Origin: a virus
IMG/VR virus record: IMGVR_UViG_3300024054_000269
Location: 62,001 to 126,000 of that record
Strand: one strand, 5' to 3'
DNA length: 64,000 nucleotides
Of this stretch, positions 22,561 through 62,588 are shown one piece after another; positions within the stretch are counted from its first letter, which is position 1, and each line of letters opens with the position of its first letter. Below the pieces are notes generated by a model. It did no database searches. It was given only the letters and a program-made list of their open reading frames with translations, and had not been told where the DNA came from. The translations under genes and the position numbers were made by a program.

Positions 22561-22962
22561 ATGGTCGAAAAATTAAGCATAACAATTCCAGAATCTGTCA
22601 CTATAGGAAATGTTGGTTCCATATCATTTTATGAATTTATACGATTTCTTTGTTCTAGAGATCAAAGATTTCTTGGGTCGGCAAACAGAGTCAGAATGGG
22701 CGTAAAAATAGAATCTTTGTTTAAAGATAAAGAACCTGGTTCTATTGTTGACGTTGAACAAAGTGATTTTAATTTATTGTTAAAAGTTGCGACAGAACCA
22801 GCATGTGGGTATCCAAGATTAGACATAATAAGACAAAATGGTCAACGTGATACTGTGTTAACTGATAGAGCAATTATGGTATATGTTGAAGCCATTGAAA
22901 ATGCTGAAGTTGCTGAAGTTGCTGAAGTAGAACAAATAGAAAATAACGGAGGCGATGTTTAA
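22561..22962 (+). CDS. Hypothetical fibre-associated protein, 133 aa
   Basis: The ATG at 22561 follows TAGAGTATGCT, a weak ribosome binding site. The core (residues 1-105) appears alpha/beta (GSISFYEFIRFLCSRDQRFLG). The C-terminus carries an (AEV) repeat encoded by a 9-base unit repeated about three times near 22903-22929, then an acidic tail. It sits between a tail fibre and the first of the H-x6-H repeat proteins and overlaps the latter by TAATG. It could be a fibre chaperone or adaptor; no family is recognised. Confidence 0.7.
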   Translation: MVEKLSITIPESVTIGNVGSISFYEFIRFLCSRDQRFLGSANRVRMGVKIESLFKDKEPGSIVDVEQSDFNLLLKVATEPACGYPRLDIIRQNGQRDTVLTDRAIMVYVEAIENAEVAEVAEVEQIENNGGDV

Positions 22963-25742
22963 TGCCATCCGGCGGATGGGGCGGTTTATTCGGCGGCGGG
23001 CCTTGGGGAGGCTCTGGCGGCGTGCCTGGTGTTGAATTTGTAGCCCATGTTATAAGTTCAACAGAATTGCGTTTAAAATTTGAAGCACGCGTTGAAGACG
23101 ACGGGAATCCGACAGACATAACAAACTACATTTTAGATTCATTTGAGCCATTTGGTACATATTATTTACCTAATATTTTGTCAGTTAAATTCGATGACCC
23201 TGGAAATAGAGCTATAATAATAACCTTCGAAAAATCATTAACTTTGAATAAAACTTACAGAATACAAGCTTTAAATTTGAAGACCGCAATTGGTGGATTA
23301 GACATATCAGGATTACCGCATAGTTTTTTATCAACAGTTCCAGACCCGCCAAGGGCGCTAACATCTCATATTAGTGGCCTTGACACGATAGACATTGTAT
23401 TTGATAGATCAGTTGGTCCAACTTCGTCTTCAGCAACTGCCTCCATAAGACCGTCTGGTTCAACTGGACCTGGAACATTACTAACTTTAGTTCCATATGT
23501 TGCGTCTATTCCTGAAGATCATATCAGATTTACATTAAATCCATTAATGGTATCGGCAAATTCTCATGAAATTGTGTTTTCCGATGTTGTAGATGAATCA
23601 TTAAACGTTGGTACAAATGAAGTTGATTTGAATTTGAAGTTAAGGGCTCCATCACCGTTTGGGTATTCTGAGATAACTCAAGCACAAATCATAGGAGCAA
23701 CTGTAAACAGAGTCAACAACGATTATTTAGTTGGAACTTATTTATTAGTTTATTTTAATGTTCCAATGCTTCCTTCTGATATCACAAATTCTGCAAATTG
23801 GTCAATTTCAACACCAGGTTCTAATGTTATTCCTGATACAAGCAATACACTACTGCTAAATCCTTTAGTAGACCCGCTAGTGAATGTAGCAAATGAATTT
23901 AAAACAAATTTTAATAGTCACATAATTAAAACTGGCATACATGTTACAAAAGAATTTACTAAAAATTTGACGTTTGCTGATTTAGTTGATGAATCAAATC
24001 TCATAACACTTTCGAATGATTTAAAGAGAAAATATGAAGCACATAGAACACAAAGTGGCGTTCATCCATTTGTGTTAACAAGATACAACGATTTGTCTAA
24101 TATAATAACATCCACAGATGCATATGATGTTGCTTCTTCGATAATTTTATTAAATGAAATTAAAACAAAATATAATCTGCATAGAGTAAACACTCTATTT
24201 CATATCGTTGCTGATACAACAAATATCGTAACTGCTGCTAACGCGGTTGACATAACAACGGCGGCGGCTTTGGCTGAACAAATAAAAAATAAACTAAATT
24301 ACCATAGAACTCAATCTGGTGTACACACATCAGATGATACAATAAATGTTGTTACAGCAGTTGATGCAGCATTATTTATAACTTCACCAACGGCAATTGA
24401 TACACAAACATCAATCGATATATGTAATGAAGCACAGAACAAATACTTGGCTCATTTGTCAAAATCTGGTTTTCACGTATTTGAAGATACAATTAATACG
24501 TATATACCACTTGTAGTTAATCCTGGGAATGTCCCGTTAGCCAGGGCAATTTTTGATCAATACCTGTATACTAATTTTAACATACACATAACTGATAGTT
24601 ATCAAGTAACAATAACTAATATAAGAAATGAGAATTTTGTACCATATGATCCATTTTATGACGTAGCAGAAGTTCGTGTTGATGTATTTGATACTAACAC
24701 ACCTTTTAATATCGAAGTAACGGCAAATAATTTGAACAGTTCTAGCATAACAAATCCAGCAAATTATTCTGGGTCTATTGGCATAGATTCTGCTCGTTCT
24801 ATTTCTAATCAATTTACCAGTAATTTAATTTCAAAAAATGAATTCAATATCAGATTTGATAAGAAAACACTTGCAATGAATATTGACCAGTTTGTTTTAA
24901 CTGATCCATCGATGTTAACCACTCCAATTTTATCGATTCAACAACGTTCTTCAGTACCAAACGCATTTTTTATGCTTGATCATTTAGCTGATGTATATGA
25001 AATACACAGAAACGCTGTTATACATTATACACCAGATGTTACAAATATAATAACTACTCTTGATAGACCATATTTGCCAGATTTGCAAATTATTATTAAT
25101 TCATCTAACCTCATAAAGGACATTATTAATGAACATTTTCAATCATCGAGTCATTTTTCACCGGATCAAAACTTAATAACGGCCCCGAATGCAACTGATT
25201 TAGATTCACTAATTGTTTTGTTATCAGACATGGAAACAAAATATTTAGAACACATAAAAAATCATATAGCACATAATGGAGAATCACTAGTTTATTATTC
25301 AACAGGTCTTTTTGATTCAATTTCTGTAGCTTTTCCAGATTTAGTAGACGATGAAGAATACACATTAAATTTTGATGCAACAACATCTGTCGTTGATAAC
25401 GCTGAAAACACAAAATTCGAATCGAATTTGGTTACTTCTGCGTCTTTCTTCGGAGTAACCCAGCCACCAGCCATAGCACCAGCCCTATCAGAAATAGGCA
25501 TTAAACCAACTTATGAAGAAGGAAAATATCTAACACCAGATTCTGTTTTGGGGTTTATTTCAAAACCATTAAGACAGAAAGAATTGACTTCGTCTAATAT
25601 TCAAATACCAAGTGTTATAATTAAAAATTTTACCTGGATAAGTAATAGGAGAATCGCAACGTTTATAACAAACATGCAAAATTCAACTTATAATTTTACT
25701 ATAACTGGCATAACTGATAAAGCTGGAAACGACATCTTGTAA
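22962..25742 (+). CDS. Fibre/adhesin protein with H-x6-H repeats, 926 aa
   Basis: The start at ATG 22962 overlaps the previous stop (TAATG). The N-terminus is Gly/Trp rich (GGWGGLFGGGPWGG), followed by Ig-like strands and a T.DPPRAL linker typical of surface proteins. From about 23880 to 25300 there are roughly nine units with the pattern N-E-[LI]-K-x-K-[YF]-x-x-H-x6-H-x3-DTxNxVT (examples HRTQSGVH, HRVNTLFH), some degenerate. The C-terminus has further Ig-like strands. It is the first of three neighbouring genes with this repeat, so the three probably assemble together or arose by exchange. Probably a long host-contacting fibre; family not known to me. Confidence 0.75.
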   Translation: MPSGGWGGLFGGGPWGGSGGVPGVEFVAHVISSTELRLKFEARVEDDGNPTDITNYILDSFEPFGTYYLPNILSVKFDDPGNRAIIITFEKSLTLNKTYRIQALNLKTAIGGLDISGLPHSFLSTVPDPPRALTSHISGLDTIDIVFDRSVGPTSSSATASIRPSGSTGPGTLLTLVPYVASIPEDHIRFTLNPLMVSANSHEIVFSDVVDESLNVGTNEVDLNLKLRAPSPFGYSEITQAQIIGATVNRVNNDYLVGTYLLVYFNVPMLPSDITNSANWSISTPGSNVIPDTSNTLLLNPLVDPLVNVANEFKTNFNSHIIKTGIHVTKEFTKNLTFADLVDESNLITLSNDLKRKYEAHRTQSGVHPFVLTRYNDLSNIITSTDAYDVASSIILLNEIKTKYNLHRVNTLFHIVADTTNIVTAANAVDITTAAALAEQIKNKLNYHRTQSGVHTSDDTINVVTAVDAALFITSPTAIDTQTSIDICNEAQNKYLAHLSKSGFHVFEDTINTYIPLVVNPGNVPLARAIFDQYLYTNFNIHITDSYQVTITNIRNENFVPYDPFYDVAEVRVDVFDTNTPFNIEVTANNLNSSSITNPANYSGSIGIDSARSISNQFTSNLISKNEFNIRFDKKTLAMNIDQFVLTDPSMLTTPILSIQQRSSVPNAFFMLDHLADVYEIHRNAVIHYTPDVTNIITTLDRPYLPDLQIIINSSNLIKDIINEHFQSSSHFSPDQNLITAPNATDLDSLIVLLSDMETKYLEHIKNHIAHNGESLVYYSTGLFDSISVAFPDLVDDEEYTLNFDATTSVVDNAENTKFESNLVTSASFFGVTQPPAIAPALSEIGIKPTYEEGKYLTPDSVLGFISKPLRQKELTSSNIQIPSVIIKNFTWISNRRIATFITNMQNSTYNFTITGITDKAGNDIL
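23880..25300 (+). repeat. H-x6-H repeat array, first block (about 9 units)
   Basis: Protein-level repeat inside the 926-aa gene. Units combine a helix (NDLKRKYEAH, NEIKTKYNLH) with a second His seven residues later and a loop rich in D, T and N (DDTINVVTAVDA). DNA copies are diverged, so the array is old rather than a recent slippage product. Units near 24560 and 25110 are degenerate. Confidence 0.8.
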
Positions 25743-28700
25743 TGGGAACTATATCATTTACCGGTTTAAGTTCTGTTTCTGATAGAACTTTGTTTACAAA
25801 CAAAGGTCCTATCGTAAAAAGACCGCTATCACTTCTTTCCGGGTCAGATTTAAGAATTGTTTCGGAAAACGAAATTGAGATATTGTCAGGATCATTTACA
25901 TCATCAAATGTTGGACAAATAATAACAATTTCAGGGAGTTTGAATAATCGAAATGATGGGACTTTCACAATAGATCAAGTAAAAAATTCAACACGTTTAG
26001 TGTTAAAGAATTCGTCGTTTGAACTTATAAACGAAACTGACACGATCGAAAGTATTATTGATTTAGCGAATGATATTCGTAATAAATATGAATTACATAG
26101 AATTCAAGATGAAGTTCACGGATCAAATGATACAACAAATATAATATTCACTGCGATTGCAGTACCAACATTGGCAAATGCAATAATTTTGTTGAATGAT
26201 ATAAAAACTAAATTTAGTGCGCATATAATAGACATATCATCCCCTAGTCCAGGGGAGCCAACAGTCCACTTAGAAGCAGATGTAGAGAATACCGTGTATT
26301 TGCCTGATGCTGATGACTTGGCATCGGCGTTACAACTGGTTAATGAATTAAGAAAGAAATACTCGTTACATAGACAAAGTAACATCTATCATCAAAACGT
26401 TGATTCTGCAAATGCTGTTACAGTTGATAGAGTAATACCAACAGTTGGTACCTATCCGGGTTCTTTAACTGGGCCATTATCTTGGGTATTAAAAAGTCCG
26501 AGAATAGGGGAATTTGCGGACGTTCCGGAAGACGTTGATGTTTATGTTAATTCTACAGATGCTAGTGTTGACGCAGTGTTCGGATTATTAGGAGCTGTGG
26601 TTTTAACTTCAAAACCAACTAGTAGTGATACAGTTGAAATTGATTATGATTATTTAAACAACCCAGCTGTTCTGTTTACTGGTTTAAATTTTCCAGGCTT
26701 CACATTTAATCAAGCTGGCAACCACGGAATTGGGGGCTTGCCAAGCCACAAATACAGAATGCGTGCGTTTTTTATAGACCCAGAAAATCTTCCAAACCCG
26801 CATGGCGTTTCTTCTCCGTTTGCGCCGAGACTTGTTGGTTGGAGATATAAAGGATTTGAAAGGGCGTATACGGCATCTTTAAACGACCCAAATTTATTTA
26901 GACTAAATTCGCCAGCAAACAAAATACTTTTTCCAGTTGAAGAAGACCCAGCATTTGAAACGTCCGTATCATATGATCCAACTAATTTACCACAAAATGT
27001 AACAAATCCTTGGACCTCCAACGGATTTGGAACCGTTTACATATCAGGTAAACGTCTTATTATAATAGATGCCGATGATGGTTCAGGAACTGAGAGTCTG
27101 CCACCGTTTTTTAGCAAAGAAATAAATATTGACCCACCAAGCATCGTTTCAGCAGCTTTTAGAACTGAATTATCAAACGAAGGTCTTTTGCTTGACGGAG
27201 CTTTTACTGGTGTTGGGTTTGGGTTTTCTGATGGTAACAATGTAGCATTAATTGGGTTCATAATAACATCACAACCCGCTACAAACTTATCATCAGCTAT
27301 TTCACTAACAAATGAAATAAAAACCAAATTTAACTCCCATGTAATAGAGCCAACTGTTCATTTTGTTAATGATACACAAAATATTGTAGATCTCGTAAAT
27401 GCTACCAATTTGTCTCAACTATTAATTATTTTGAATTCGTTAAAGGCGGCTTTTAATTCTCATATTGTTAAAGTTCCAGAACATGCGATATCAGATACAA
27501 CTGATTTGGTAACGTCGCCAGACGCAGGCGATCTATATTCTGAAGAAATTTCATTACAACAAGCTATAACATTAGTAAATGAACTACGAGATAAATACAA
27601 TACACATCTGTCTCAAATAATAACATCAACTAATGTCCATCAAGTTAACGATACTATAAACGTTGTTCCGGACGTAAAACAAGTAGGAATTTTAACAAAC
27701 AGGGGACCATGGGAATTCGGAGAAAATTGGAACTCATATGCAATAGATTTCACAGAGACAAAATCATACAGGATAGCACGAAACATAGACGGAGGTGTTT
27801 CGTTATACTTGAGTGGTATGATAGATCCGATTGCGACGGTTGAAGCATCTGAACTACCGTCGATTTCAAATTTGAATGCTAAATTTGATCCTATACAACA
27901 AGTGTTTTTTGGTGCAATTAGTAAAGAGTCAACGTCCACAAGCAGGTGGTCATTTGTAAGAACTGTTATAACACCATTAGACCCAGATAGAATCAGCCGC
28001 AATAAATCCATAGATTATCAAGCATCAGTAACACCAGAACTTGATACAACAGCACCTTGGGTACCTGTAGGATTAAATGGATTTGAGAGAGTAAATAGTG
28101 GAATTTTATTGCTAGATTCAACTGCGTCAGCAAATACAAATGAACTAGATTCATTTGGTTTGAGCAGCGGTGCCTACAGGGGATTTTTAAGATTTGAACC
28201 AACTCAAACTATAAGAACATCGACTGTAATAGAATTTAGGACAAAAATCGACTATTACACATTTGGGATAAACAATAGATCGGCTGGTGTGTATTTAGAT
28301 GATAAGAATCTTCAGGTGCATTTTTCATTTTTGCAATATTCACCGTCAGCTCCAACAACGATTGGTAGATCTGAACTTTATCCGATAATACTTGGTGACA
28401 ATTTGTTGTTGAGGATAAATAACGGACAAATCATAACAATAACATTTGCTGCCACAGATACAACTGCTGCCACAGTTGCAGCCAAAATTAATTCTACCAC
28501 TGGTGTACCATCCGGTTTTGCATCGTCAAGCAGCGGGAAAATTAAACTTACAGGCGTAAATCTTGGTGTAGAGTCATCATTTGAAATTGTTGGCGGTACA
28601 GCTGTTACAAAACTTGGTTTAATTATAGGTAATTATATTGGTTCTGATTCGAACCCAGAGCCAAGAATTTCATATTTTGGTGCCGATTTACCTGATAAGG

Positions 28701-31700
28701 ACAACCCGGTTTGGGTTTCAAGTGGAGAACAAAGAGCCGAATTAATAAACAGGGCGCTTAGAATAACTGATGACAGTGTGACCGATTATCGTTTGTTTGA
28801 TTTGTCAAACATTCTTGTTACTGAGCCTGTACTAAAAGATCCGAATGATTGGAAATTGGACACAAGAATCACAGTTTATTCTTATACGCCTTCTTCTACA
28901 TACATAATTTACGGTTTGTATGTTCCAGTTAAATTTGCCGGTGCATTTATAAATATTGATGAAGGGGTTGGTGGTAAGAACTTAGAACTGCATCTATCTG
29001 TTGATCAGAATGGTAACAAATATGTAACTATTTTGTCGATTATTGCCAGTGCATACATAATAGTTTTTCAAGCACCGTTTAACTGGGATGATGGTCTACC
29101 ACATTCATATAATGTGTATATGAACAAAGCGTCTGGCTTGGTGTTTGTATTAGCTGATGGACAACCTATAAATGATGTTTTATCAGCAACCAATTCATTT
29201 TTGACTTCTGTTTTGAAACCGAGTGTGTCTGGTCCGTCTGTCACATTTGGTTCTGGTAGTATGCCAATCGGTGCAATAGATATAAACACAGCTAAATCAG
29301 TTGTTGATTGGCATTCAGTGGCAGTGTTCAAAGATAGTAAAATAAACGATTCGAATTCTTCTATAAGACGTTATATTGGTTTATATAAAGGTGGAAATGA
29401 GAACGAATTAAGCTCATATTATGTACATCAAATAGATTGGACTTCGTTTCATACATACAGAATAATTAGAAGTCCAGACGATTACGTGTCAATATTCGTT
29501 GATAACAATCCAACGCCTGTTATATCAATTAGTTATGACTCTTTAAGACTTCCATTAGTTAATACGAGTTTCTTGAATGGCATAACCGGTGGAATACCAT
29601 CAATAGCATTTGGATCGTTTAACCCGCAAGAGTTATCAAGAACAGAATGGGACTATGTAAAATATTCGTTGGGCAGAATCATACAAAGAAACAGGCTTGT
29701 GCCAAGGCATCATTTATTAAATTATGCCAATTTGATAACATCACCAGATCACCTTTTCACAAAAGCGCAACACATACATTTTGGTAAAGAAGTCTATTCA
29801 GAAGGAACAGCATCAGAAGAGTTGATAGCTAATGACACAGCTAGCAGTTATACGATTTTAGGAGAAGGAACGCCACCAATTCCAATGACTCAAAATCTTG
29901 AGTCAAGAGGCGGGTTGGTAAAATCAATAACCCAAACTAAGAATATAAACACCGTAGATTTCATTAATTCAAACGGTTTCCCGGCAGCGTTTGAAGACGA
30001 TTCAATAAATGTAATTCTTTCAGAGAATGCCTTTGATTTGTCGACTTCAATAGCATTAGTTAATGAATTAAAATCTAAATTCAATTCACACTTAACTCAG
30101 TATAGAGTCCACGTATCAAATGACAGAATAAATATTGTTGAAATAGACGACGCGTCTGACTTAACAACTGCTATAGACTTAGTAAATTTAATAAAATCAA
30201 AATACGGTTCGCATTTAATTCAATCCGGAATACACACAAACAATGATACAGTAAACATAATAACATTATCTGATGCAACAAATCTTGCCACATTGATAAC
30301 TTTGGTTAATGAAATTAAAATTAAATATGAATCGCATAGGATGCCAATAGTTGCGTTTGCAAATGATTTAAAGTCTAAATTCAATTCTCATCTCACACAA
30401 ACTGGCGTCCATGTTGTAAACGGAACAACTACCGTAACAACACAAGACGCAGCTGATCAATTGTCTGCGTTCGTCTTAATAAACGACGTTAGACAGAAAT
30501 ACAATGAACATTTAGTTGAGATTGGTGTTCACATAACTAATGACACTATAAATTCTTCAATTCTTCCACCTGTAACAAATTTCTCGTCAGCTTTAGCGCT
30601 AGTTAATGAGGTTAATTCAAAATACGATTTACACAGGGCTGACTTAACTTATCATTTGGTTGCTGATACAATCAATATAAATACATATTTCATATCATTA
30701 CTGTTAATACCTGACGTTCATTTGTCAACAGTAATAATAAGACTTGATCCGCCTTCAAGGGTTTTGTACGAAGCCATGAAATTTTACACATTTGCAGAGG
30801 GCGATGTTGGACATTTATTTCCATTTTCAGATGATGAAACACTCCATGTTCATGGCATTTCTTATGCTGGATCTCATTCTTTCTCATATGAAGGTTCTGT
30901 TTTACCGGAAGACGCTGCTGAATTTGCTGTTATAAACTTGGCAAATGACTTGAAATCGAAGTACAACTTACACAGATCACAATTTGGCGTTCATATGAAT
31001 GATGACATATTAAATGTCGTCACAGCTCCAAATTCAACTGACCTATCTTCTGCTATTACATTATTAAATGATATAAAAACCAACTATAATTTGCATTTGA
31101 TAACTGGAAGTGTTCACACAACGAATGACAATGAAAATAAAGCTATAAACATTAATGCAACAGAGTTGTATACGGCTCTTTCATTAGTTAATGAATTAAA
31201 GTCAAGATATGAAGCACACATAGATAGCATAGTTTACCACGTGTCAGTCGACACAACTAACGAAATATCAGTTGAAGATGCACCACCAGTCGCAGATCAA
31301 GGGTGGTTGTTAACAACTGAAGGACCAGGTTCAGCTTCCATATCATTGATAACAGTTGGTCCAACAACTGCGTTAGAATATGGAGCAGTTGGGTCTATAG
31401 AAACTATATATAAGAATAAGAATCCATTGCCAAGTATTGGTAACCAGAATTTTGAAATGTCATTAAGTCTAAGAATCAATGATGTTTATACGGTCGTCCC
31501 AACTTTCGATTCAAGAATTTATGCTGGTTTTACAAGTAAAATGCATGGCGGAATTGCGGCGGCTATTGGATTTGATTCAATAAATAGCGTTCCATATGTG
31601 AAAATTCATGATATGAATAATGATGAAACTGTGTATCGTGTCCCATTTGATTGGGGCGACGGTAATTTCCATTCATATCGTCTTGTAAGGGACATTAACA

Positions 31701-31732
31701 CAAACACAATAGGCCTCGTAATAGACTCATGA
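25742..31732 (+). CDS. Giant fibre/adhesin with laminin-G-like and H-x6-H repeats, 1996 aa
   Basis: TAATG coupling to the previous gene. About 15 H-x6-H units occur in four blocks (near nt 26050-26430, 27300-27670, 30050-30690, 30940-31280). Between them are laminin-G/ConA-like jelly-roll modules recognised by FNWDDGLPHSYNVYM, FHTYRIIRSPDDY and later FAFGSFNP-like edges, at about 27700-28000, 28750-29330, 29340-29690 and 31290-31732. One hook-IN-like module (about 28390-28630, ITITFAATDTTAATVAAKIN) matches those in the tailspike at 43614. The last laminin-G module stops short, directly at the next gene's start. Likely a carbohydrate-binding host adhesin on the virion. Confidence 0.75.
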   Translation: MGTISFTGLSSVSDRTLFTNKGPIVKRPLSLLSGSDLRIVSENEIEILSGSFTSSNVGQIITISGSLNNRNDGTFTIDQVKNSTRLVLKNSSFELINETDTIESIIDLANDIRNKYELHRIQDEVHGSNDTTNIIFTAIAVPTLANAIILLNDIKTKFSAHIIDISSPSPGEPTVHLEADVENTVYLPDADDLASALQLVNELRKKYSLHRQSNIYHQNVDSANAVTVDRVIPTVGTYPGSLTGPLSWVLKSPRIGEFADVPEDVDVYVNSTDASVDAVFGLLGAVVLTSKPTSSDTVEIDYDYLNNPAVLFTGLNFPGFTFNQAGNHGIGGLPSHKYRMRAFFIDPENLPNPHGVSSPFAPRLVGWRYKGFERAYTASLNDPNLFRLNSPANKILFPVEEDPAFETSVSYDPTNLPQNVTNPWTSNGFGTVYISGKRLIIIDADDGSGTESLPPFFSKEINIDPPSIVSAAFRTELSNEGLLLDGAFTGVGFGFSDGNNVALIGFIITSQPATNLSSAISLTNEIKTKFNSHVIEPTVHFVNDTQNIVDLVNATNLSQLLIILNSLKAAFNSHIVKVPEHAISDTTDLVTSPDAGDLYSEEISLQQAITLVNELRDKYNTHLSQIITSTNVHQVNDTINVVPDVKQVGILTNRGPWEFGENWNSYAIDFTETKSYRIARNIDGGVSLYLSGMIDPIATVEASELPSISNLNAKFDPIQQVFFGAISKESTSTSRWSFVRTVITPLDPDRISRNKSIDYQASVTPELDTTAPWVPVGLNGFERVNSGILLLDSTASANTNELDSFGLSSGAYRGFLRFEPTQTIRTSTVIEFRTKIDYYTFGINNRSAGVYLDDKNLQVHFSFLQYSPSAPTTIGRSELYPIILGDNLLLRINNGQIITITFAATDTTAATVAAKINSTTGVPSGFASSSSGKIKLTGVNLGVESSFEIVGGTAVTKLGLIIGNYIGSDSNPEPRISYFGADLPDKDNPVWVSSGEQRAELINRALRITDDSVTDYRLFDLSNILVTEPVLKDPNDWKLDTRITVYSYTPSSTYIIYGLYVPVKFAGAFINIDEGVGGKNLELHLSVDQNGNKYVTILSIIASAYIIVFQAPFNWDDGLPHSYNVYMNKASGLVFVLADGQPINDVLSATNSFLTSVLKPSVSGPSVTFGSGSMPIGAIDINTAKSVVDWHSVAVFKDSKINDSNSSIRRYIGLYKGGNENELSSYYVHQIDWTSFHTYRIIRSPDDYVSIFVDNNPTPVISISYDSLRLPLVNTSFLNGITGGIPSIAFGSFNPQELSRTEWDYVKYSLGRIIQRNRLVPRHHLLNYANLITSPDHLFTKAQHIHFGKEVYSEGTASEELIANDTASSYTILGEGTPPIPMTQNLESRGGLVKSITQTKNINTVDFINSNGFPAAFEDDSINVILSENAFDLSTSIALVNELKSKFNSHLTQYRVHVSNDRINIVEIDDASDLTTAIDLVNLIKSKYGSHLIQSGIHTNNDTVNIITLSDATNLATLITLVNEIKIKYESHRMPIVAFANDLKSKFNSHLTQTGVHVVNGTTTVTTQDAADQLSAFVLINDVRQKYNEHLVEIGVHITNDTINSSILPPVTNFSSALALVNEVNSKYDLHRADLTYHLVADTININTYFISLLLIPDVHLSTVIIRLDPPSRVLYEAMKFYTFAEGDVGHLFPFSDDETLHVHGISYAGSHSFSYEGSVLPEDAAEFAVINLANDLKSKYNLHRSQFGVHMNDDILNVVTAPNSTDLSSAITLLNDIKTNYNLHLITGSVHTTNDNENKAININATELYTALSLVNELKSRYEAHIDSIVYHVSVDTTNEISVEDAPPVADQGWLLTTEGPGSASISLITVGPTTALEYGAVGSIETIYKNKNPLPSIGNQNFEMSLSLRINDVYTVVPTFDSRIYAGFTSKMHGGIAAAIGFDSINSVPYVKIHDMNNDETVYRVPFDWGDGNFHSYRLVRDINTNTIGLVIDS
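26050..31280 (+). repeat. H-x6-H repeat arrays, second gene (about 15 units in four blocks)
   Basis: Same unit as in the gene before. Well-preserved examples are HLTQTGVH, HLIQSGIH and HRSQFGVH, each preceded by N-[ED]-[LIV]-K-x-K-[YF] and followed by NDTxN. Blocks alternate with laminin-G-like domains, so the repeat seems to be a spacer or trimerising stalk between binding heads. Confidence 0.8.
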
Positions 31733-32628
31733 ATTTGACTAGATTAACAACTATTTGTAATGATGGTTCCAACATTCTGTTGTTAAATAGCGATTATGAT
31801 AATTATGCAATTAAATTAGATGAATCATTTAATATAATCTCGAAGATCAAATTAAAAAACACCGTTGCAAGCGGATCACTACCGTTTTTTTCTATCAAAG
31901 ACAACACCGGGGTTTGGTTTTCTGACTTAGCATCAAGTCGTGTGTTCAAAATTATTAATGATGAAATCTCAATTTCACTTCAAATTGGCCAAGGTGGTAT
32001 TTTAGGAATAGCTACAACTCCTGATTATTTGTTTGTCGCTGAATTGGGACAAAATGGTATAACAAGAATTGGTTTGTCTGATACAGATAATAGGATTACA
32101 ACTGGCATACAAGCTCAACTTATAAAATTTGATGAATCATCTGGACTTATGTGGTTTGTAGATGCAAACACAAAATCAATTGGCGTCATTGACCCGAATG
32201 ATAAATTTGGATTTTCGTCTATTATTTATTCTATTGAATTAGAAACAACTAATATTTTTGATTTTGTAATACTTGACGCTGAAGTTTGGGTAACAACATC
32301 AAATGGTGTTGTAATAATAAACAAAGCTGAAAGAAGAGTAAACTCACAAATTTTTTTGTCAAAGTCTCAAATATGTTATTTTTCTGGTAACCATAACATT
32401 ATACATAACAGCAATAATAAAGTGTACATATCATTACCACACATTAAATCTTTAGCTGTAATAAATACAGCCACGAAATCTGTAGAAATCATAAATGTTG
32501 GTTTTAACATTGATTTAATCCATTTGTTTAATGGCAAAATATTTGCACTCGATCCATATGCCGATGTTGTGTTAAAACTAGATAGCAATGCTGGTCTTTT
32601 GATGAGTTCTGTGATAGAGGTTGGTTGA
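31729..32628 (+). CDS. Beta-propeller-like protein (NHL/YVTN type), 299 aa
   Basis: ATGA overlap with the giant adhesin. The whole chain follows a repeated four-strand rhythm: GVWFSDLASSRVFKI, LFVAELGQNGITRI, LMWFVDANTKSIGVI, VWVTTSNGVVII, VYISLPHIKSLAVI, IFALDPYADVVLKL. This spacing of about 40-45 residues with D/N-x-x-x-x-V-x-x-[IL] ends is typical of NHL/YVTN-like propellers, here six or seven blades. It has no catalytic motif and no signal peptide. On a phage it probably acts as a fibre head or a protein-protein platform. The fold is inferred from sequence rhythm only. Confidence 0.7.
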   Translation: MNLTRLTTICNDGSNILLLNSDYDNYAIKLDESFNIISKIKLKNTVASGSLPFFSIKDNTGVWFSDLASSRVFKIINDEISISLQIGQGGILGIATTPDYLFVAELGQNGITRIGLSDTDNRITTGIQAQLIKFDESSGLMWFVDANTKSIGVIDPNDKFGFSSIIYSIELETTNIFDFVILDAEVWVTTSNGVVIINKAERRVNSQIFLSKSQICYFSGNHNIIHNSNNKVYISLPHIKSLAVINTATKSVEIINVGFNIDLIHLFNGKIFALDPYADVVLKLDSNAGLLMSSVIEVG

Positions 32629-33362
32629 TGCCTCTTCCAATATTCATAACCCCAATATATCAAACACCAACCGGTGTTGTTCTTGGGCGTGTACCAATTT
32701 CGAGATTTTCTGGTCAACCAATTTCTGGACTGTTGACGCCAGTTACATCGGGGTTGGTCTTTTTTTCACCAGTTTTGCTCGAACAATTACCAAATAATGA
32801 AATAGACTTAGATTATATTAGGGTGGTTGTAAATTCGAATGATGTTTATACACCTCCGGTTGTAGAAAATTCAAGATTGTTCACATTTGGGCCAAATAGT
32901 AGTTCAAGAACGAATCAACCAAAATGGAGAACCCAACCAAAGGAGTATACAGCTATTGGCGGATTGGTTGATGAGACTTTGTTAATTACACTTGCAAATG
33001 ATTTAAGAGCTCAATATGAAGCTCATAGAGCATCAGCTGTATTCCATGTAATAGCTGATGGAATCAATACAATAACATCTCCGGCGGCCGTAAGCTTGGC
33101 AACAGCAACTACGCTTTTGAATGAGTTAAAATTGAAATTTGATCTGCACAGAACACAACCTGGCGTTCATTCAACTGATGATGTAATTGATGAAATATTA
33201 ACGGCAAATGCAGACGGTAACCCATTACCGGCTGCGTTTCTTGCAAATGAATTGAAACTGAAATATAATGTGCATAGAACTGCACCATTAATTCACGTTG
33301 TGAATGATGGCATAAACATAGTGACTGCAGCTGATCCGTCAGTTATAAGTAAACTAATATAG
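32628..33362 (+). CDS. Short fibre/adhesin protein with H-x6-H repeats, 244 aa
   Basis: Start taken at ATG 32628, whose A is the last base of the upstream TGA; a TTG three bases earlier is possible but unnecessary. The N-terminal half is Pro/Gly/Thr rich (FITPIYQTPTGVVLG) and the C-terminal half carries three H-x6-H units (HRASAVFH, HRTQPGVH, HRTAPLIH) at about 32980-33330. It is the third gene in a row using this repeat and by far the shortest. It may be an adaptor that joins the long fibres through repeat-repeat packing. Function is inferred from context. Confidence 0.75.
   Translation: MPLPIFITPIYQTPTGVVLGRVPISRFSGQPISGLLTPVTSGLVFFSPVLLEQLPNNEIDLDYIRVVVNSNDVYTPPVVENSRLFTFGPNSSSRTNQPKWRTQPKEYTAIGGLVDETLLITLANDLRAQYEAHRASAVFHVIADGINTITSPAAVSLATATTLLNELKLKFDLHRTQPGVHSTDDVIDEILTANADGNPLPAAFLANELKLKYNVHRTAPLIHVVNDGINIVTAADPSVISKLI
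32980..33330 (+). repeat. H-x6-H repeat array, third gene (3 units)
   Basis: Three adjacent units close to the C-terminus. Each has the helix N-[ED]-L-[RK]-x-[QK]-[YF]-x-x-H followed by His seven residues on and D-x-I-N. They form the end of the repeat-bearing region that begins at about 23880. Confidence 0.8.
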
Positions 33363-48068: not shown

Positions 48069-49067
48069 ATGAAAACAAAACATAGTCTTCTTTTGGTTCC
48101 TTTTGGTTTCTTTGTGTTTTTAGCGTGTGGTGGTGGTGGTGACGAGACGGGTTTGACAAAAGCGTCTTCTGGCGGTCAAGCCGGGGCGTCTTCTGGCGGT
48201 CAAGCCGGCTCTGGGTCTGGCGGTCAAGCCGGTGGTCAGTCCGGGTCTGGCGGTCAAGCTGGAAACACTGGAGGGTCTGCTGGATCTGTTATCGATTCGG
48301 GATCTGATGTTATCGATTCGGGATCTGATGCCATACTTGATTACAATCAAGATATTTTGACTGATTCACAGTCTGATGTTGAAGCATGCGTCCCCCAACC
48401 ATGCGCAAATGACGGCAAGACTTGTGGTAGTCTTCCAGACGGTTGTGGTGGGATGTCTAAATGTTTGTACCAGTGTTCTTATCCAAAAACTTGTGGTGGC
48501 AATCCGAATGACCCTAATGGGTGCTATTGCAAAATGAAAACACAAACTGAAATAAATTCTGTTTGTGCTACATATAGCTGTACTGATGGTGCGAGCGTTT
48601 CAGACCCGTGTGCTAACGGTGGTGCCGTTTCGTGTCTTCTTTATCCAAATCAGAAACGATGTAAGTATTTGCAGACATGTAAAGACGCTGGCGCAACCCC
48701 GACAGATTTTACTTGCCAGGGATGCACAGACAGTAGCATCGACACTGGTTGTTCACAAAATCAACCATTTGCTTATACATGCCCTGGAAATGTGACACCA
48801 CCAACTAGTGAATGCACATGGAATTCCTCCACTCAGAAATGGTGTTGCAAAAAGAATACGGCTGGTTGTTTTGTCCAGTTTGAAGAAACTTCATGCAATC
48901 CAACATTTGGATGCACATGTCCGGCCGGTAAGAAGGTTGTTTTTGATTGTGGTGCTTTTGGTACGAATCCTATTGCTAATGATTTGATGCCCCAGTTTGG
49001 ATGCATCAAATCTACAAATCAATACGCACTTGATAAGTGGTGTTGCCCAACTAATTCTGTTGGTTGA
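48069..49067 (+). CDS. Myxobacterial-type Cys-rich outer lipoprotein, 332 aa
   Basis: Starts at ATG 48069 with a strong Shine-Dalgarno (AAGGAG, 5-6 bases upstream). Residues 1-19 are a signal peptide and FLAC (17-20) is a lipobox, so Cys20 would be lipidated. A Gly/Ser/Gln linker of about five SGGQAG units (residues 33-65) follows, then a duplicated VIDSGSD, then a Cys-rich domain with C-x4-C-x6-C and DGCGG (residues about 107-136) and several more Cys pairs. This architecture is typical of lipoproteins in Myxococcota (established for that group in general terms). It is not a tail protein: it is placed alone, followed by an intrinsic terminator. Likely a cargo gene acting on the host surface, for example receptor masking or superinfection exclusion (inference). 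Confidence 0.85.
   Translation: MKTKHSLLLVPFGFFVFLACGGGGDETGLTKASSGGQAGASSGGQAGSGSGGQAGGQSGSGGQAGNTGGSAGSVIDSGSDVIDSGSDAILDYNQDILTDSQSDVEACVPQPCANDGKTCGSLPDGCGGMSKCLYQCSYPKTCGGNPNDPNGCYCKMKTQTEINSVCATYSCTDGASVSDPCANGGAVSCLLYPNQKRCKYLQTCKDAGATPTDFTCQGCTDSSIDTGCSQNQPFAYTCPGNVTPPTSECTWNSSTQKWCCKKNTAGCFVQFEETSCNPTFGCTCPAGKKVVFDCGAFGTNPIANDLMPQFGCIKSTNQYALDKWCCPTNSVG
48165..48263 (+). repeat. SGGQAG-coding repeats in the lipoprotein linker
   Basis: Five near-copies of a segment containing TCTGGCGGTCAAGCCGG, noticeably richer in G and C than the surrounding phage DNA. They encode the flexible Gly/Ser/Gln linker after the lipidation site. The copies are similar enough to allow slippage. Confidence 0.85.
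48288..48329 (+). repeat. 21-bp perfect tandem duplication (VIDSGSD twice)
   Basis: Two exact 21-base copies (48288-48308 and 48309-48329) encoding VIDSGSD twice at the end of the lipoprotein linker. Perfect identity points to a recent duplication. Confidence 0.9.
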
Positions 49068-55751: not shown

Positions 55752-56166
55752 ATATTCAATTCTCCTGAACACCGGAGAAAGATTTGAAATCGTAGAAATA
55801 AGAAAAGATCAAATAACTAATATAGATTTGAGTTTAGTTTTAGACAAATGTCCGGTAATACCTCGTGAAATTGTTGAAGAAGCAAAATTGGGGCATAGTA
55901 AAAGATTCCAATTGTTGTTGAATACTAATCCAATTGGCTCTTTGATGAAATTTAAAAAACCAAACTGTAGGCTTATAAATAACTGTGCAATGGCCGATAA
56001 GAAAATTTGTTTAACAACAAATGTTAACAACAAATCTGGAAATTTTCCTGAGTGTTGGGAATTCACAAATGATATAGATACAGAATTTTTGGACGAAAGT
56101 TCTGAATTAATAACTAAAATCGTCCATTTGTGGAAAATGAATAAATATGTGATAATCAGTGATTAG
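55738..56166 (+). CDS. Hypothetical protein, 142 aa
   Basis: ATG 55738 overlaps the end of the CHC2 gene by 14 bases. The protein has an N-terminal beta part (YSILLNTGERFEIVEIRKDQ), a central Cys-containing region (NCRLINNCAM, then KICLTTN and ECWEF), and a C-terminal helix. Four to five Cys residues could bind zinc. It is translated with the primase-like gene, so it probably works in replication, but no family is recognised. Its end overlaps the minus-strand dnaJ end by 11 bases. Confidence 0.6.
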   Translation: MELNEYSILLNTGERFEIVEIRKDQITNIDLSLVLDKCPVIPREIVEEAKLGHSKRFQLLLNTNPIGSLMKFKKPNCRLINNCAMADKKICLTTNVNNKSGNFPECWEFTNDIDTEFLDESSELITKIVHLWKMNKYVIISD

Positions 56167-57238
56167 TTTTGTTAAATTCAATTTTCAACTCCTCAACCAA
56201 CTTTCTGGCTCTTGGTGTCAATGTTGATGGCAAAATTGCTTTTAATACAACAATAAGATCACCTTTGTTTTTAGTTTTTATGTTTGTTGCTCCAGCACCT
56301 TTGACTATTACTTCATGATCTGGTTGCATGCCGGGCAATATGTCTATATTGACGTTGCTTCCATTTGGTAACTTTATGTTTTGTTTCAATCCGATTAAGA
56401 AATCAATAATTGGCGTATAATGAATAATCTTTAAATTGTCGCCAATTCTTGAACATTCTTCTCTTTGATCAACATAAATCGTTACGTAAAGGTCGCCTGG
56501 TTCACCATTTTCTATAAAATTTCCTTTTCCTTGAATTCTTAATTTTTGTCCAGCTTCAACACCTGGTGGAATAAAAATAGACACAAACTTTATTGATTTT
56601 GTTTTACCAGAACCGTGGCATGTTTTACATGACGAAATGAACAAAACACCAAGCCCGTTGCACACATCACATGTGATTACGTTCATGACGTGTTTTCTAG
56701 ACGAAATGATTTTCCCATGGCCAGCACAAGATTTACACGGTATCTTTTTACCGTTCACATCCTTGCCTGATCCAGAACAATCATTACAATTCAAATCTCT
56801 TTTTACGGATTCTATTTTAAGTTCCTTCTTACACCCATTTAATGATTCTTCAAGAGACAGTAATATATCAACTTCTATATCTTTTCCTTTTCCTTTTCCT
56901 ACTGAATCATCAAACCCATCAAACCCATCAAACCCATTATTAAACATGTCTTGAAAATGATTCATAAAATCAGAAAATCCTGGACCACTGGTTCTTGACC
57001 ACCTAGTCCCAGGGCTAAATTGAAATGATTTCGAATTATCGTATTTATTTCTTCTATCTGGATCAGATAAAACTGAATAAGCCTCAGACGCAGCTTTCAT
57101 TTTGTTTTCTGAATCTTGGCAGCCTGGATTTTTGTCTGGATGATATTCTTTGGCTATTTTTTGGAATGCTTTTTTTATTTGTTCAGAAGTGGCATTTTTT
57201 GGGATGCCAAGAATGCTATAATAATCGGTGTTGTTCAT
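56156..57238 (-). CDS. dnaJ: DnaJ (Hsp40) co-chaperone, 360 aa
   Basis: J-domain at the N-terminus with HPD at residues 33-35 (EYHPDKN), then a Gly/Phe region (GFDGFDGFDD, 102-111), then four zinc motifs CxxCxGxG at 151-158 (CNDCSGSG), 168-175, 190-197 and 204-211, then a typical DnaJ C-terminal domain (IFIPPGVEAGQKLRIQGKG). The full type I layout makes the call safe. It stimulates an Hsp70 partner; the phage partner is presumably host DnaK. It lies on the minus strand between replication genes, with its start 29 bases from the polymerase start (divergent). Confidence 0.95.
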   Translation of the reverse strand: MNNTDYYSILGIPKNATSEQIKKAFQKIAKEYHPDKNPGCQDSENKMKAASEAYSVLSDPDRRNKYDNSKSFQFSPGTRWSRTSGPGFSDFMNHFQDMFNNGFDGFDGFDDSVGKGKGKDIEVDILLSLEESLNGCKKELKIESVKRDLNCNDCSGSGKDVNGKKIPCKSCAGHGKIISSRKHVMNVITCDVCNGLGVLFISSCKTCHGSGKTKSIKFVSIFIPPGVEAGQKLRIQGKGNFIENGEPGDLYVTIYVDQREECSRIGDNLKIIHYTPIIDFLIGLKQNIKLPNGSNVNIDILPGMQPDHEVIVKGAGATNIKTKNKGDLIVVLKAILPSTLTPRARKLVEELKIEFNKTNH

Positions 57239-61931: not shown

Positions 61932-62588
61932 GTGATAGCTCAAGAGCTGAATCGATCTAGGACTATCAAGGTAAAAAACCCCATTAAAACACAACGGCTG
62001 CCATGGCCAAGATTATCAGAAGACGAACCAAAAGTTCAGCTTGGAGTTGACGTTGTAGCAAAACAACAAGATATAATAAAAATTGTATACAAATTTTTTA
62101 GAGTCGAAGATATATCAATGGACGAACTTTTACAAGAAGTATATCTTGCAATATTGCATAAAAATCAAACAAGAAGTGCGCATGATCAAAGGAAATCGAG
62201 TTTTGGGCATTATGTTTATATGGTAGCAGATAATGTATGCAAGAATTTGGTCAATAAAAGAAAACGACGAGACAGAGAAAAAGAATCGCTTGATGCACCG
62301 TGTAATGTAGATGGCAGTAGAAGAACGAATTTAGAGGTCATAGAAGATTGTGGGTTTTTGAATGTTGAACCAATTAATAATGATATAGAACCTGCTCAAG
62401 AATTTGAAGAAATCCTTAGAAAAAACGGCAAAAGAGAGCTTGCAAGATATATTAGGGCGGTTAGATACGGTGCAAGGCCTGAGATAATAAAAGAAGCCCT
62501 TTCCTTTGGTCAAAAAAGGTATTCTGCAAAGATGGTAAGAGATTTAAAAACGAAAGTCAAAGAAGCAGCTAAAGAATTTAGTCTTTAA
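61932..62588 (+). CDS. Sigma-70-like (ECF-type region 2) factor, 218 aa
   Basis: ATG 61932, preceded by AGAGGGAAATAAACGTG; an alternative GTG lies just before. Residues about 60-115 resemble sigma region 2: SMDELLQEVYLAILHK, then an Arg/Lys/Ser stretch, then FGHYVYMVADNVCKNLVNKRKR, comparable to the -10-binding and core-binding helices of ECF sigma factors. Region 4 is less clear: the C-terminus (REL.RYIRAVRYGARPEII, KMVRDLKTKVKEA) might contain a divergent helix-turn-helix. It may steer the host RNA polymerase to phage promoters such as sites A and B. The 3' end overlaps the next minus-strand gene end by 11 bases. Confidence 0.65.
   Translation: MIAQELNRSRTIKVKNPIKTQRLPWPRLSEDEPKVQLGVDVVAKQQDIIKIVYKFFRVEDISMDELLQEVYLAILHKNQTRSAHDQRKSSFGHYVYMVADNVCKNLVNKRKRRDREKESLDAPCNVDGSRRTNLEVIEDCGFLNVEPINNDIEPAQEFEEILRKNGKRELARYIRAVRYGARPEIIKEALSFGQKRYSAKMVRDLKTKVKEAAKEFSL

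Follow-up and report, generated by a model that had tools for sequence, protein, structure and literature searches.

What kind of protein module is built from the short histidine-bearing repeats that run through three neighbouring putative virion genes of a virus recorded in IMG/VR, and what do the histidines do? The window, meaning the whole stretch of 64,000 nucleotides analysed here (positions 62,001 to 126,000 of record IMGVR_UViG_3300024054_000269, which comprises 182,302 bases), had been read in an earlier note as carrying about 27 repeat units in three consecutive genes (9, 15 and 3 units). A profile built from 22 hand-picked units returned identical counts, with 9 units in ORF 22962-25742, 15 in ORF 25742-31732 and 3 in ORF 32625-33362, spanning window positions 23847 to 33329. 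Each unit is about 41 aa long with the consensus ITLPNATDLSSAIALANELKSKYNLHRTQSGVHVTNDTTNIVTA, and 25 of the 27 have i-Evalues of 5e-9 or better, the remaining two, both in ORF 22962-25742, being degenerate (0.15 and 1.5). The genes are not strictly consecutive, because a gene without units (ORF 31729-32628) separates the second from the third. Profile (HMM) matches and the resulting unit table define the following features:

22962-25742, plus strand: 926-aa protein with nine units forming three triplets (aa 296-556, two in tandem; aa 658-781)
23847-24233, plus strand: triplet 1 (units 1-3), six His
24228-24629, plus strand: triplet 2 (units 4-6), five His, the degenerate unit 6 keeping its first His only
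24933-25304, plus strand: triplet 3 (units 7-9), H-x5-H retained in unit 8 despite its degenerate score
25742-31732, plus strand: 1996-aa protein with fifteen units forming five triplets
26021-26425, plus strand: triplet 4, six His (x14 spacing in unit 2)
27263-27673, plus strand: triplet 5, six His (x10 spacing in unit 6)
30014-30340, plus strand: triplet 6 (units 7-9), five His, its third unit broken off just past its first His and joined to triplet 7
30341-30688, plus strand: triplet 7, six His
30896-31273, plus strand: triplet 8, six His, folded with AlphaFold2 as window 30887-31291
31729-32628, plus strand: intervening 299-aa gene without units (no HMM match)
32625-33362, plus strand: 245-aa protein with one triplet, which makes up its C-terminal half and holds all six of its His
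32949-33329, plus strand: triplet 9, six His

The layout of ORF 25742-31732 recurs in homologues from six further loci (L014, L015, L033, L045, L085 and L087). Gene neighbourhood, rather than a family match, suggests that the repeat proteins of the window may be of baseplate or fibre type. The proposed alternation of the units with laminin-G-like and Ig-like modules was not borne out, as the stretches between the arrays gave no significant Pfam match. Vgb_lyase matches the intervening ORF 31729-32628 weakly and below threshold (E 0.0037), which suggests a beta-propeller.

The spacing of the paired histidines is mostly x6, so that the H-x6-H signature stands as the usual form; as a fixed spacing it does not, since x5 to x14 are found, many relatives have x10-12 in unit 2, and two window units (unit 6 of ORF 22962 and unit 9 of ORF 25742) have no second His. 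The latter unit directly abuts the helix of unit 10 (window 30260-30341), as if its loop and the start of the next helix had been deleted. The six-His spacing was never reproduced in residue-shuffled copies of the unit-bearing ORFs.

The earlier note had suggested a profile search of phage and bacterial proteins; here, relatives were collected by scanning DNA motif patterns against IMG/VR and GTDB genomes, followed by a profile search. Units occurred in about 146 loci, nearly all on contigs of uncultured viruses. Complete, de-duplicated arrays contained 3 (n = 93), 6 (n = 11), 9 (n = 4), 12 (n = 1) or 18 (n = 1) units, such that 110 of 138 were multiples of three, and the other 28 mostly comprised one or two units where weak units had been missed. 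Window arrays are likewise grouped as 6+3, 3+3+6+3 and 3, giving nine triplets. This predominance of multiples of three argues that the triplet (~125 aa), rather than the single repeat, is the evolutionary unit and, as far as array organisation can indicate, the functional unit as well. Within bacterial and archaeal genomes, triplets were present in only 3 of 41 pattern matches (L123, L140 and L141), and the domain is therefore nearly confined to viruses and prophages. Among 50,697 annotated phage records, tblastn with eight queries produced one match (MW202476), and plasmids produced none by tblastn. One of these three, an Oligoflexia MAG contig of 8.9 kb and of either phage or bacterial origin (L123, JAADHA010000170), contains an open frame spanning 2666 aa or more, in which two triplets lie near aa 1225-1475. 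Two 932-aa ORFs (L057 and L040) carry 18 units in one protein, the first of which lie only ~26 aa apart; these early units, with a helix and His and no long loop, could possibly be a compact variant of the repeat.

How the three units come together was addressed by predicting the structure of window 30887-31291 with AlphaFold2 from 82 diverse triplet sequences. The model is a single compact domain (mean pLDDT 95.6, pTM 0.89) with helices at residues 8-30, 53-71 and 94-112, joined by long, ordered and confidently predicted return loops, and any strand in it is shorter than three residues. With high confidence, the triplet is thus predicted to be a three-helix, single-chain domain. The first His of each unit (residues 29, 70 and 111) is modelled as the final or penultimate helical residue, and the second (36, 77 and 118) in the loop that follows. 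All three first His lie 41-60 degrees off the centre of the hydrophobic face, on the same side of their helices.

These features bear on the model of the earlier note, in which the units were rods of a trimeric fibre whose His pairs, one heptad apart on a helix, formed metal sites between chains and helped the three proteins to join. His6 sites are known in trimeric fibres (PMC6116203), and parallel helices with His near the inward face would suit such an arrangement. However, the predicted H-x6-H would not be a heptad helix, because the first His ends the helix and the second sits in a non-helical loop; the spacing also ranges between x5 and x14. The units, moreover, come in threes within one chain; all six His are supplied by that chain within one predicted domain, and a triplet folding as one self-contained monomer would need no chain trimerisation to gather them. 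With the virion settings described below also weighing against it, we regard this trimeric stalk as very improbable.

The six His are the most conserved residues of the domain. Across the 82 triplets, which share 17-56% identity with the query, four His were invariant and two were conserved at 95% and 94%, compared with 85% for the best-conserved non-His residue. As a search pattern containing His could inflate such values, conservation was counted again with a His-masked profile; with units selected by no search pattern, this His-blind count recovered His in 379 of 386 (98%) and 323 of 335 (96%) units. The second His is followed, three to four residues on, by an Asp that was 87% conserved where aligned. 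Five-His cases exist and weigh against a shared six-His site, comprising two of the nine window triplets (triplets 2 and 6) and a small clade of relatives with five His only, in which Ser replaces the first. Mutual information placed positions 27 and 32, beside the His, of different units among the top pairs, although phylogeny was uncontrolled in this analysis and it is not taken as proof. Clusters of histidines can act as pH sensors, and the six could instead hold no metal and work as a switch that responds to pH, or serve a purely structural purpose through hydrogen bonds. We consider this improbable, as near-invariance of all six His down to 20% identity, and through the circular permutation described next, exceeds what hydrogen bonding would lead one to expect, and Asn, Gln or Glu, which can also hydrogen-bond, are nearly absent as replacements.

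Twelve triplets have no second His in unit 3, and all 12 have a His upstream of unit 1 instead. In eight of these it lies 30-35 residues before the first His of unit 1, which is the normal inter-unit distance. Other triplets have an upstream His in 13 of 82 cases within a wider 30-50 residue interval (Fisher p 1e-8) and in 6 of 86 within the strict 30-35 aa interval (p 7e-6), both p-values being too small given that the loci are mutually related. The permuted cases are drawn from different virion genes, and include L167, where the spacing is H-33-H-7-H-34-H-7-H-34-H as opposed to the canonical 7-34-7-34-7, and an 812-aa protein of L033 (34-7-33-7-34). Their His spacing marks the permuted triplets as the same ring opened at another point, with the six-His count kept. 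A model of the permuted L140 protein reached pLDDT >90 for most of residues 41-160, but the N-terminal arm that should supply the extra His scored poorly (pLDDT about 52 for residues 31-40), which weighs against the single six-His site.

Permutation also bears on how the six ligands might be divided. The same triplet domain could hold two three-His sites, one of helix-end His and one of loop His; each would hold Zn or a different ion, or the conserved Asp would contribute to a mixed site. Pseudo-symmetry would make the three first His equivalent to one another, and likewise the three second His, and the 87% conservation of the Asp fits a mixed site. Both His of a pair are nevertheless retained together, and permuted forms restore the lost second His at canonical spacing, which is most simply explained if all six belong to one site; two separate sites are therefore unlikely in our judgement.

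The reading that we favour, and hold to be probably correct, is of a single-chain domain of three units whose six His bind one transition metal, used as an interchangeable module of the virion. Each repeat would be one third of the domain, and three would fold into one pseudo-threefold chain, with each helix ending at its first His and the long, ordered return loop carrying the second. The three equivalent His pairs would then converge at the pseudo-threefold axis around a single transition-metal ion, probably coordinated octahedrally, and the metal would staple the three helix-loop units into a rigid, stable module. Such modules would be deployed as two insertions in the tail sheath, as arrays in large window proteins of probable baseplate or fibre type and, in other phages, as a small protein whose gene adjoins that of the major capsid protein.

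The sheath setting was uncovered in the same viral record, where a fourth unit-bearing gene lies outside the window (G000:C1:36332-41329, equivalent to L151:4332-9329) and encodes 1665 aa. It carries six units as two triplets (aa 700-829 and 960-1083), and the best PHROG families for its C-terminal region are those of tail sheaths (phrog_2839, E 5e-26; phrog_279, E 7e-15); two triplet modules are thus part of this phage's contractile sheath. The full-length protein matched only DUF2460 in Pfam, and a profile of the C-terminal part had no PDB sequence match. At 1665 aa, the protein is roughly three times the usual size of a tail sheath. Including this gene, repeat-bearing sheath relatives were found at 14 loci. 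Extra domains of sheath proteins are usually Ig-like and located away from the tube (PMC9230969).

The head provides a further setting. Small proteins of 170-300 aa with a single triplet are encoded directly after major capsid genes or within their head module, and the adjoining major capsid genes span five unrelated PHROG families (9953, 247, 10, 212 and 334). In MW202476, the triplet gene (record positions 70234-70770, encoding 178 aa) lies three genes after the capsid gene. A candidate head-gene region with the module is also present on the Polyangium contig NZ_JASBQE010000002. Genes for head decoration or fibres occupy this capsid-neighbour position. The triplet may have a role at the virion surface, displayed outward. 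Presence of the domain in sheath proteins, which are subunits of a helical tube, and in small capsid-neighbour proteins adds to the case against a trimeric fibre stalk; we found nothing to indicate that the repeat joins the three window proteins, and its distribution argues instead for a general plug-in module. On several virion parts the triplet behaves as such a module, as Ig-like domains do in phages, and most likely it serves to stabilise and space virion parts mechanically or to bind surfaces weakly.

Two further genes of the window deserve mention. The protein at 48069-49067 has a lipoprotein-like start (FLACGGGG) followed by SGGQAG repeats and a Cys-rich part, a style known from myxobacterial lipoproteins. 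Together with the Polyangium locus L140, this protein hints at a possible Myxococcota host. On the minus strand at 56156-57238, the phage encodes a full-length DnaJ-like co-chaperone, in whose translation a J domain and CxxCxGxG repeats can be read.

Recognition of the triplet makes accessible a class of module that sequenced phage isolates almost lack and that uncultured viral contigs contain, and would allow unannotated parts of the virion proteins of large phages to be named. The domain, at ~130 aa, is short enough for quick expression and structure solution and may be a useful scaffold for protein design, whilst its circular permutation amounts to a natural experiment that preserves all six ligands.

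Comparison with known families agreed with the earlier view that the repeat has no named family. Whole window proteins returned nothing usable from Pfam, NCBIfam, PDB sequences or PHROG, with no Pfam score above the cut-off, and 93 triplets searched against Pfam hit only four families, with one member each at E 0.001 or worse. By structure, Foldseek matched neither the triplet nor the L140 model to PDB or BFVD at E 0.001 or better, and VIA-align recovered no relative of either (best Z 3.5). Weak single-unit PDB matches to triosephosphate isomerase and designed proteins were rejected as short helix matches without the His pattern. No earlier description of the domain was found in the open-access literature searched. 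Taken as a whole, the balance tips modestly towards an undescribed domain family and possibly a new fold, namely a single-chain pseudo-trimer with one six-His metal site kept through circular permutation, which uncultured phages would exchange freely, as a metal-stapled module, among sheath, baseplate and proteins associated with the capsid.

Of the known phage families, PHROG 6994 ('head fiber protein') and PHROG 37030 (unknown) resemble the repeat through weak single-unit matches (best 2e-5 and 3e-6, respectively) and a head-gene setting. They differ in being profiles of 67 and 76 positions that align over about 25-65 residues; PHROG 6994 matches are partial, covering 28-59 of 67 positions in L140 (E 1.3e-4), with a window triplet at 1.5e-4. 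Ig-like decoration domains of phages (Hoc, extra sheath domains and tail proteins) share with the triplet an interchangeable, often tandem use in sheath, tail and head-associated proteins. They are beta sandwiches, whereas the triplet is predicted as three helices and loops with a His6 signature; with no beta sandwich in the model, Ig-like identity was rejected, and the triplet would work like such a domain without being one.

For the site itself, calprotectin, an animal S100 heterodimer, has one of the rare protein sites in which six His coordinate a transition metal; it serves as an analogy only, being unrelated to the triplet in sequence or setting. Six-His metal sites are also a trademark of trimeric phage fibres. 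T4 gp37, P2 gpV, the phi92 spike and the R-pyocin fibre each combine HxH motifs from three chains into an octahedral six-His Fe(II) site (PMC6116203). The earlier analogy with T4 fibres holds insofar as His conservation fits a metal site; the threefold arrangement between molecules gives way to a putative pseudo-threefold within one. Both are phage virion proteins with six His as three pairs, and they differ in that the HxH motif gives way here to H-x6-H across a predicted helix end and loop, and three chains would be replaced by one helical chain. The HxH shaft motif was accordingly rejected as an identity for the window domain, whose motif is H-x5 to x14-H, and the same ligand set was seemingly reached within one chain by tandem triplication.
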